Assembly (NCBI GenBank): GCA_016218045.1
Contig: JACRFB010000001.1
Span: 124,001-188,000, forward strand
Direction: 5' to 3'
Length of the DNA: 64,000 bases
Origin: Ignavibacteriota bacterium
GTDB taxonomy: Bacteria > Bacteroidota > Ignavibacteria > SZUA-365
The notes under the pieces were generated by a model. The model was given only the letters and a program-made list of their open reading frames with translations, was not told the DNA's origin and searched no databases. A program made the position numbers and the translations under genes. This document shows positions 41,680-43,752 of this stretch, in pieces. Within the stretch, counting starts at the first letter, position 1; each line of letters opens with the position of its first letter.

Positions 41680-42369
41680 ATGCGCGCAATGCGAAACTTT
41701 CTCTTGGTGATTGCTCCTCTCATTTTCATCGGGCCCATTACGTCGGCTCAAGATGACGGTCGCATTGTGTTCAAGGATCCAAAAAGTCCAGAAAACGAAG
41801 TGCTGACCGACGAGGAGCTGAGCCCGAAGACTCACGCGTGGGGACTCGACTTGATGATCGGAAACGACGGCTTCGGACTCGGAATGTTTTACCATCATCT
41901 CCTCAATGACGTTGTCACCGCCTTCGCCACGTGTAGTTTTTCGGAGGCTCGCGATGTGCGACAAATTGATTTTGTAAATTATTGGACGGGTGCTCAGTGG
42001 TCTCCGAATAAGGTAAATCGGGTCTTCCGGGTCCCCCTCTTCGTTGGCGTGCAATACAGGCTCTTTGCTGAAGATATCACGGACAATTTCCGCCCATACG
42101 TTCAGGCCGGGGCTGGGCCTGTGATGCTCTACATCACACCCGCGGAAAAGGAATTTTTTTCGAGCCTCACCGATGGCTTTACCAAGTACACCTACGGCGG
42201 CTTTGTTGGCGCGGGTGCACAATTCGGCTTTGACAGGTCGAGCGTCTTCGGATTAAACCTTCGCTACATGATCATTCCTACTCCCAAAGGCATCCAGAGC
42301 GTCCAGGAAGGAGTTCTTGCCAACGCGAATGGGTTCTTCATAGCCATTAATCTGGGGATATCGTTTTAG
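41680..42369 (+). CDS. Putative outer membrane beta-barrel protein
   Basis: The 229-residue protein has a signal peptide (cut about residue 23, ITSAQ), an acidic linker, and about ten short amphipathic strands, ending in an aromatic residue (NLGISF), typical of porin-like barrels. A conserved G-A-G-A/Q pattern (YVQAGAGPVMLY, GFVGAGAQFGFD) fits the OmpW/OMP_b-brl style. I recognise no specific family. A second ATG at 41689 is possible. It ends at a strong terminator. Confidence 0.75.
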   Translation: MRAMRNFLLVIAPLIFIGPITSAQDDGRIVFKDPKSPENEVLTDEELSPKTHAWGLDLMIGNDGFGLGMFYHHLLNDVVTAFATCSFSEARDVRQIDFVNYWTGAQWSPNKVNRVFRVPLFVGVQYRLFAEDITDNFRPYVQAGAGPVMLYITPAEKEFFSSLTDGFTKYTYGGFVGAGAQFGFDRSSVFGLNLRYMIIPTPKGIQSVQEGVLANANGFFIAINLGISF

Positions 42370-42393: not shown

Positions 42394-42421
42394 AAAAACC
42401 CGCCGATATGCGGGTTTTTTT
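42394..42421 (+). terminator. Intrinsic terminator after beta-barrel gene
   Basis: The stem AAAAACCCGC (42394-42403) pairs with GCGGGTTTTT (42410-42419) across a CGATAT loop and continues into a T tract. It lies about 25 bases after the stop codon. Confidence 0.92.
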
Positions 42422-42926: not shown

Positions 42927-43000
42927 TGTCCACGAAAACGGCGAAAAATCAATCAAATTTAGCTAAACACATGTCATAGTGAGAAAAGTTTCCGAAGAGC

Positions 43001-43032
43001 TTGACTTTCGTACACAAGAAAACATATTTTTA
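43001..43032 (+). promoter_or_regulatory. Promoter of candidate structured RNA
   Basis: TTGACT (43001-43006) and TATTTT (43025-43030) are separated by 18 bases. Read as a Bacteroidota promoter, TATTTTTA (43025-43032) matches seven of eight positions of TAnnTTTG with a TTG at the minus-33 region. Transcription should begin near 43038. Confidence 0.5.
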
Positions 43033-43037
43033 CGCAA

Positions 43038-43255
43038 TGCTTTACCTTCGCCCTCCTCTCACATATCATATACCTACCTGCGTTGACACAGGGGGTCGTT
43101 ACGTTTCTCGCATGTTCGGCCTTGTCCGGACAACGTCCTCGCGAATCCCTTCTACTCCGTACCCCCCACGGTGTAGTTACAACTAGGTCACATCTATTTG
43201 AGGATTCAACCTCACGCCGCCGCAAGTACACCCCCCTTGCGGCGGTCCTTTTTTT
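43038..43255 (+). ncRNA. Candidate structured non-coding RNA, 6S-like rod
   Basis: The transcript has nested pairings along its length: TCCTC 43054-43058 with GAGGA 43200-43204; ACCTA 43072-43076 with TAGGT 43184-43188; GTTG 43082-43085 with CAAC 43180-43183; ACAC 43086-43089 with GTGT 43171-43174; GGGGGT 43091-43096 with ACCCCC 43161-43166; ACG 43101-43103 with CGT 43158-43160; and an apical hairpin GTTCGG 43114-43119 with CCGGAC 43126-43131. The result is one long imperfect hairpin with an internal bubble, as in 6S RNA (which binds RNA polymerase to regulate transcription in stationary phase). It has a promoter and terminator of its own and no open reading frame that resembles a gene. The 6S identity is inference from shape only. 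Confidence 0.55.
43217..43255 (+). terminator. Intrinsic terminator of the structured RNA
   Basis: The perfect 10-bp stem CCGCCGCAAG (43217-43226) and CTTGCGGCGG (43236-43245) with a C-rich loop is followed by TCC and seven T residues. The opposite strand lacks a T tract, so it does not serve the convergent OsmC gene. Confidence 0.9.
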
Positions 43256-43317: not shown

Positions 43318-43752
43318 TTATTCGGCTTCGGAGATGGTGTATGAATGTGTGATGTCCATTGCCTTTCGGTACATCGCTGTAACGCCACAGTATTTGTCGA
43401 GTGAGAGATTGATTGCTCGTTCCAGATCCTGCGCCTGCAATCCGGTGCCAAAGAACCGATACTCGATGTGCATTGAGGTGAATACTTTCGGATGCTCCTC
43501 AGTCTCTTCTGCGCTGATCGCCAATTCGAATCTGTCGAGAGGCACTCTTTTTTTAGCGAGAATTGAGGCGACGTCGCTACCCGTACACCCCGCCAAAGCC
43601 AGCAACATCAGCTCCTTAGGCCTGATCCCTGCATCAGCCCCTCCAAATGCAACCGGACCGTCCATCGTAAGCCAATGCTTGGAGTCCGTGCGTCCACTGA
43701 ACGTGATTCCGTTCTTAGAGATCTGTGTTACGAATGCGGTTTTCGTTGCCAT
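43318..43752 (-). CDS. OsmC-family protein (second copy)
   Basis: The 144-residue protein has the OsmC fold with HWLTMDGPVAFGGADAGIRP, ELMLLALAGCTGSDVASILAKK containing the first conserved Cys, and the second Cys in LSLDKYCGVTAMY. It should detoxify organic peroxides or act as a thiol-dependent reductase. It is only distantly similar to the OsmC protein at 40209. It lies 63 bases upstream of the regulator gene end, in the same direction as the two-component pair, but probably as a separate unit. Confidence 0.9.
   Translation of the reverse strand: MATKTAFVTQISKNGITFSGRTDSKHWLTMDGPVAFGGADAGIRPKELMLLALAGCTGSDVASILAKKRVPLDRFELAISAEETEEHPKVFTSMHIEYRFFGTGLQAQDLERAINLSLDKYCGVTAMYRKAMDITHSYTISEAE

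Follow-up and report, generated by a model that had tools for sequence, protein, structure and literature searches.

The locus described here lies in a stretch of 64,000 nucleotides from an Ignavibacteriota bacterium (the window, to which all positions refer). Re-reading of positions 43001-43255 on both strands recovered a promoter pair, a stable fold and a terminator, and judged from these elements the locus is a free-standing transcription unit of ~219 nt (about 43037-43255), made up of a promoter, a predicted structured RNA and an intrinsic terminator, with a putative short open reading frame inside it (Table 1). The gene upstream, which encodes an outer-membrane beta-barrel-like protein (OMP), has its own terminator-like hairpin near 42400. 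The ORF between this gene and the RNA had no Pfam match and grouped with no ORF of the relatives' loci. An antisense ORF (42974-43231) was discarded, being interrupted by stops in relatives.

Table 1. Features of the RNA locus and its neighbours in the window.
Feature	Position	Strand	Remarks
Outer-membrane beta-barrel-like gene (OMP)	41680-42369		upstream of the RNA
ORF of 139 aa	42507-42926	+	between the OMP gene and the RNA
Bacteroidota-type promoter	43000..43032	+	scan of all 11 homologues
Putative leaderless short ORF	43037..43186	+	starts with ATG at 43037; the window copy has 49 codons
5' C-rich single-stranded segment, CCUCCUCUC	43052..43060	+	largely conserved in family alignment A3
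Hairpin P1, CCUACCUGCGUUGACACAGGGGG	43073..43095	+	near-invariant; 11/11 genomes, two families
G-tract and tail after P1	43091..43102	+	proposed contact with the terminator loop (43227-43236); duplex energies
Hairpin P2	43108..43144	+	UCGC/GCGA outer stem, UGUUCGG/CCGGACA inner stem
Hairpin P3, C-rich loop ACCCCCC	43152..43176	+	98.6% of cells paired
Small hairpin P4, GAGG/CCUC	43199..43214	+	alignments
Intrinsic terminator	43216..43255	+	C-rich loop (UACACCCCC + stem C), U-run
OsmC-family gene	43318-43752	-	convergent with the RNA

Searching with a 303-nt DNA query gave a strong match in each of seven other genomes from the window's family (f1; E 1e-21 to 3e-40, 73-81% identity over query positions 93-296, about 200 nt), and three genomes from a second family within the order (f3) matched over a 43-nt core. 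With a covariance model built from eight sequences the three second-family matches became full length (E about 1e-15), and a later model, built with the second-family sequences included, found the RNA in 11 of 391 genomes of the class, all from these two families (eight f1, including the window, and three f3). The covariance model search of 395 genomes of the phylum gave no convincing match, and weak model matches elsewhere (E 0.002-0.004) were taken as chance. An exact motif scan across 84,980 species retrieved, besides same-group MAGs (which carry the labels Bacteroidetes, Ignavibacteria or Chlorobiota), only a single chance match, in a Litorilinea MAG (L053), comprising just the 20-nt motif; a match in a viral contig (L134) was dismissed as coincidence, its VDTGG motif lying within an ORF that we take to be a phage terminase large subunit. 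As far as found, the RNA thus appears confined to one order of Bacteroidota-related bacteria. Four further f1 genomes without a match are fragmented MAGs; in one of them (G007) a contig end truncates the neighbouring OMP gene, which in the others (G008-G010) was likewise not found, so that absence of the RNA from these four is not established. Extra exact copies of GTTGACACAGGRGG occur in G007, G009, G010 and the window's own genome, G000. The last of these (L124, G000:C1:278588-278601) is a second exact TGCGTTGACACAGGGGG inside a tiny ORF, MQTCGLCRSYKCVDTGGY, and is not conserved among 15 related genomes; the copy in G009, a MAG of the window's family that yielded no full RNA, is remnant-like (L117, G009:C322:7711-7724; CTCTCTTTACCTACTGTCGTTGACACAGGGGG, with the frame PLSLPTVVDTGG and then a stop). 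Because the RNA model matches nothing past the P1 motif at L117 and L124, and L124 is unconserved, we treated the extra copies as chance occurrences or remnants.

The OMP gene lies upstream of the RNA in 11/11 genomes, whereas the gene downstream varies in identity and orientation: in f1 it is OsmC, which four genomes carry co-directionally and the other four (the window among these) convergently, and in f3 it is leuS. The RNA unit therefore appears to be independent and not the fixed leader of any one gene. In the three f3 loci (L069, L070 and L071) leuS starts ~80 nt past the RNA terminator on the same strand, the sole lineage so arranged. At the 5' side, a -33 box CTTG (43000-43003) and a -7 box TATTTTTA (43025-43032) are spaced by 21 nt, which fits the Bacteroidota promoter consensus TTTG-N19-21-TAnnTTTG (PMC7366714). 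A pair with at most two mismatches to TTTG/TAnnTTTG is present in all 11 homologues, compared with ~1.4% of random window positions, and the spacing is 20-21 in 10 of the 11 best-scoring pairs; the top-scoring pair of G011 stands 22 nt away from the ATG, although a TTTG...TATGTTGA pair can be seen there at the usual place. In the relatives 3-5 nt separate the -7 box from the start codon (10 nt in one f3 copy), which places this codon on or beside the expected site of transcription initiation and suggests a leaderless or nearly leaderless frame, a minority class in Bacteroidota (about 3.7% of 5' UTRs are shorter than 10 nt in B. thetaiotaomicron, and 5.5% are leaderless in F. psychrophilum). 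The ATG is kept in all eight f1 copies (GTG in f3) among variable neighbouring bases. A separate match in a genome of another family (G092, L009:1501-1556), not accompanied by the RNA, covers 52 nt that are 81% identical to the region of promoter and start in the window (CTTTTTACGCAATGCTTTA; E 2.3e-5).

The single-sequence fold of 43040-43255 is far more stable than that of dinucleotide shuffles (z = -3.8, 0/200 as stable), and one relative gave z = -5.1. The conserved fold, as predicted from the alignments, is a chain of the hairpins P1-P3, the small P4 and the terminator hairpin. The 5' end carries the C-rich segment in most f1 copies. The core of P1, CCUGCGUUGACACAGG, is near-invariant including its loop, G003 deviating at two stem bases. 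In P2 all 11 pairs are standard in all eight sequences of alignment A3 and two are altered on both sides; one pair occurs as C-G, A-U and U-A, with both bases at third codon positions of the putative ORF, and another as C-G, G-C and U-A at residue-changing codon positions, each always paired. Two pairs of P3 are also altered on both sides. ACCUC of P4 is invariant in 11/11 copies, and a long-range closing helix (UCCUC 43054-43058 with GAGGA 43200-43204), possible in the consensus fold, competes with P4. The terminator has an 11-bp stem (43216-43226/43236-43246) and a T-run to 43255; 100% of its stem cells are paired over the 11 sequences, with two compensatory pairs between the two families. 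Over P1-P3 and the terminator, A3 holds 39 pairs, 99.4% of them standard, with four pairs (eight cells) changed on both sides and a covariation score that 0/500 shuffles equalled and that lies above all slid controls, a count taken over eight related sequences with the structure derived from the same alignment. Inside the putative ORF, 11/15 fourfold-degenerate sites are invariant among six same-frame genomes, compared with 3/37 in OsmC and 3/53 in the OMP gene of the same genomes, which rules out an ordinary protein-only constraint.

These alignments show the promoter, the start region, P1-P3 and the terminator to be conserved, and compensatory changes support P2, P3 and the terminator helix. 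By this comparative evidence, the RNA of ~220 bases is real, previously uncatalogued and retained by evolution for its folded shape. The original prediction had proposed a promoter-like pair and a strong intrinsic terminator, both of which are present, and an independent structured RNA, which is supported by the conservation, the compensatory pairs, the conserved promoter and terminator and the changing downstream gene. The rod of nested complementary blocks that it had drawn is not borne out: the outer pairing in the window's own minimum-energy fold uses bases that most relatives do not share. The rod is one possible fold of the single window sequence, and the predicted conserved fold differs from it.

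The same prediction saw no credible reading frame in the interval, which is probably wrong for the family. An intact frame of 44-49 codons, from ATG (GTG in f3) to a stop, is present in 10 of the 11 copies and spans the P1 core, where CCN ACC TGC GTT GAC ACA GGR GGN reads PTCVDTGG (PTFVDTGG in G003). The window copy is the frame-shifted one: a peptide HMM matches 43037-43123 and then 43114-43173 in a different frame; homology of the window ORF with the peptide of the relatives reaches to about 43123, and the homologous second half ends at TAG 43174-43176. The P2 and P3 helices are intact in this copy despite the frameshift; a broken frame with kept hairpins suggests that selection acts chiefly on the RNA. 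Across the family, indels in the ORF are mostly multiples of three, and those ahead of the motif all are; the f3 frame is open although the f3 sequence is mostly unalignable. The ORF frame scores best of six with a column-shuffle fraction of 0.11, which is suggestive only, and dN/dS is about 0.7. Taken across the family, the ORF is probably translated. No protein homologue of the peptide was found outside the order; peptide HMM matches beyond it (best E 3.7e-4, G233) were set aside, as the sequence matched there resembles a coding region and neither a promoter nor an RNA context can be seen around it.

The terminator loop is CCCCCC in 8/8 f1 copies and CCUUCC in f3. Duplex energies between the G-tail after P1 and this loop are -10 to -13 kcal/mol in every lineage, and in f3 the tail and the loop changed together (GGAGGUCA with UGACCUUC); the permutation fraction for this coordination is 0.034 over all lineages and 0.24 within f1 alone. 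As the G-tract is able to pair with the loop in every lineage, the loop may be capped intramolecularly. The reading that we favour, to which we would assign about an even chance, is a trans-acting, base-pairing regulatory sRNA to which the short ORF may add a second function. The gene would yield a structured transcript of ~219 nt stopping at its own terminator, whose C-rich segments (the 5' segment, the P3 loop and the terminator loop) would pair in trans with G-rich or Shine-Dalgarno stretches of mRNAs, while the near-invariant P1 and its G-tail might serve as a scaffold and as an intramolecular lid over the terminator loop. The same transcript would be translated, now or until recently, into a leaderless PTCVDTGG peptide of 44-49 residues, the RNA fold being the stronger constraint. 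Against pairing in trans, the G-tract may within f1 occupy the terminator C-tract and hide the loop from targets. GGGGG occurs in 2/271 upstream regions of the window genome, with no enrichment over the CCCCC control, and such rarity of G-runs near start codons gives no sign of a broad target set. A more specific variant, in which the RNA represents a new compact class of dual-function RNA whose leaderless ORF lies almost wholly inside the conserved fold (P1, the covarying P2 and P3, and the G-tail paired with the terminator loop), so that its translation would open and close the regulatory fold and the C-rich seed, seems to us rather unlikely, if worth considering.

Several of these observations would also suit a purely non-coding structured RNA, whose open frame would follow from conservation of the RNA together with a moderate GC content. 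The silent sites are frozen, P2 covaries through residue-changing substitutions (one pair goes from A/A to V/T), the window copy has lost the frame yet kept every helix, and the substitution test of coding is weak. However, the start codon, 3-10 nt past the -7 box, is kept in every f1 copy (as GTG in f3) among variable neighbours, the pre-motif indels are all multiples of three, and the f3 frame is intact in mostly unalignable sequence, so that we consider this explanation unlikely on balance, though a serious one. The opposite case, a plain leaderless small-protein gene (44-49 aa, PTCVDTGG) whose mRNA folding is incidental, would account for the conservation of start, frame and stop in 10/11 copies, but it is hard to reconcile with the frozen state of the fourfold sites, residue-altering compensatory changes, a dN/dS of about 0.7, the frameshift in the window, a conserved structured 3' part past the stop and the lack of a protein homologue outside the order; its probability is low.

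An attenuator or leader controlling transcription of the downstream gene is very improbable. A short leader ORF followed by a terminator is the classic attenuator layout, and in f3 leuS does begin ~80 nt beyond the terminator and in the same direction, but in f1 the downstream gene is OsmC, which lies on the opposite strand in 4/8 genomes including the window; moreover, no antiterminator that could replace the terminator stem was seen, and the peptide has no leucine run. The least probable explanation, with hardly any weight left to it, is a divergent 6S RNA sequestering RNA polymerase. 6S RNA forms a long rod with a large central bubble that mimics an open promoter, binds RNA polymerase holoenzyme and templates pRNA. 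Similar length, a free-standing gene and the lack of any RF00013 or RF01685 match across the whole genome, leaving no 6S RNA recognised elsewhere in it, would all agree with such a role. The 500-bp region, however, had zero matches to any Rfam family at E<=10, none of the relatives' loci reached the gathering threshold of the 6S models, and the eight-sequence consensus fold is a series of hairpins without the long rod and its central bubble, the regions that would close such a rod not being complementary in most relatives. The 6S-like fold put forward originally is therefore abandoned, and its fallback, a different structured RNA, proves the right alternative.

With 6S (RF00013) and 6S-Flavo (RF01685) the RNA shares its length class and its free-standing gene, but it matches neither in sequence nor in structure and lacks the single rod with a central bubble. 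To our knowledge, small RNAs of this Bacteroidota-related lineage are little described, and a family absent from Rfam is added for it here. Closer in design are the actinobacterial B11 and 6C, small structured sRNAs with two C-rich hairpin loops, one of which is the terminator loop. In mycobacterial B11 the C-rich terminator loop pairs with guanine tracks adjacent to ribosome-binding sites; for Gram-negative bacteria such a design has been described as rare (PMC12395582), and our RNA would be another instance of it if its C-rich terminator loop is a seed. The arrangement typical of 6C/B11, at least two C-rich hairpin loops of which one is the terminator, is found in our RNA (in the window, P3 ACCCCCC and terminator CCCCCC), but the Rfam 6C model is unmatched at E<=10, and the RNA differs in its size of ~219 nt, its sequence, the extra near-invariant P1, its phylum, an internal G-tract able to cap the loop and an overlapping ORF. 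With the 6S tests failed and the loop design of 6C/B11 present without a match to the model, the RNA is a new family that at most works like known kinds. Dual-function sRNAs such as SgrS/SgrT and SR1/SR1P carry a structured part and a short ORF on one transcript. Our RNA resembles them in joining a structured part to a short putative ORF, the independent transcript with a conserved RNA structure being supported on comparative evidence only; unlike in those systems, ORF and structure here overlap over almost the whole ORF and the start is leaderless or nearly so. A short ORF overlapping covarying helices in this way may offer a clear case in which to test how RNA shape prevails over codon choice.
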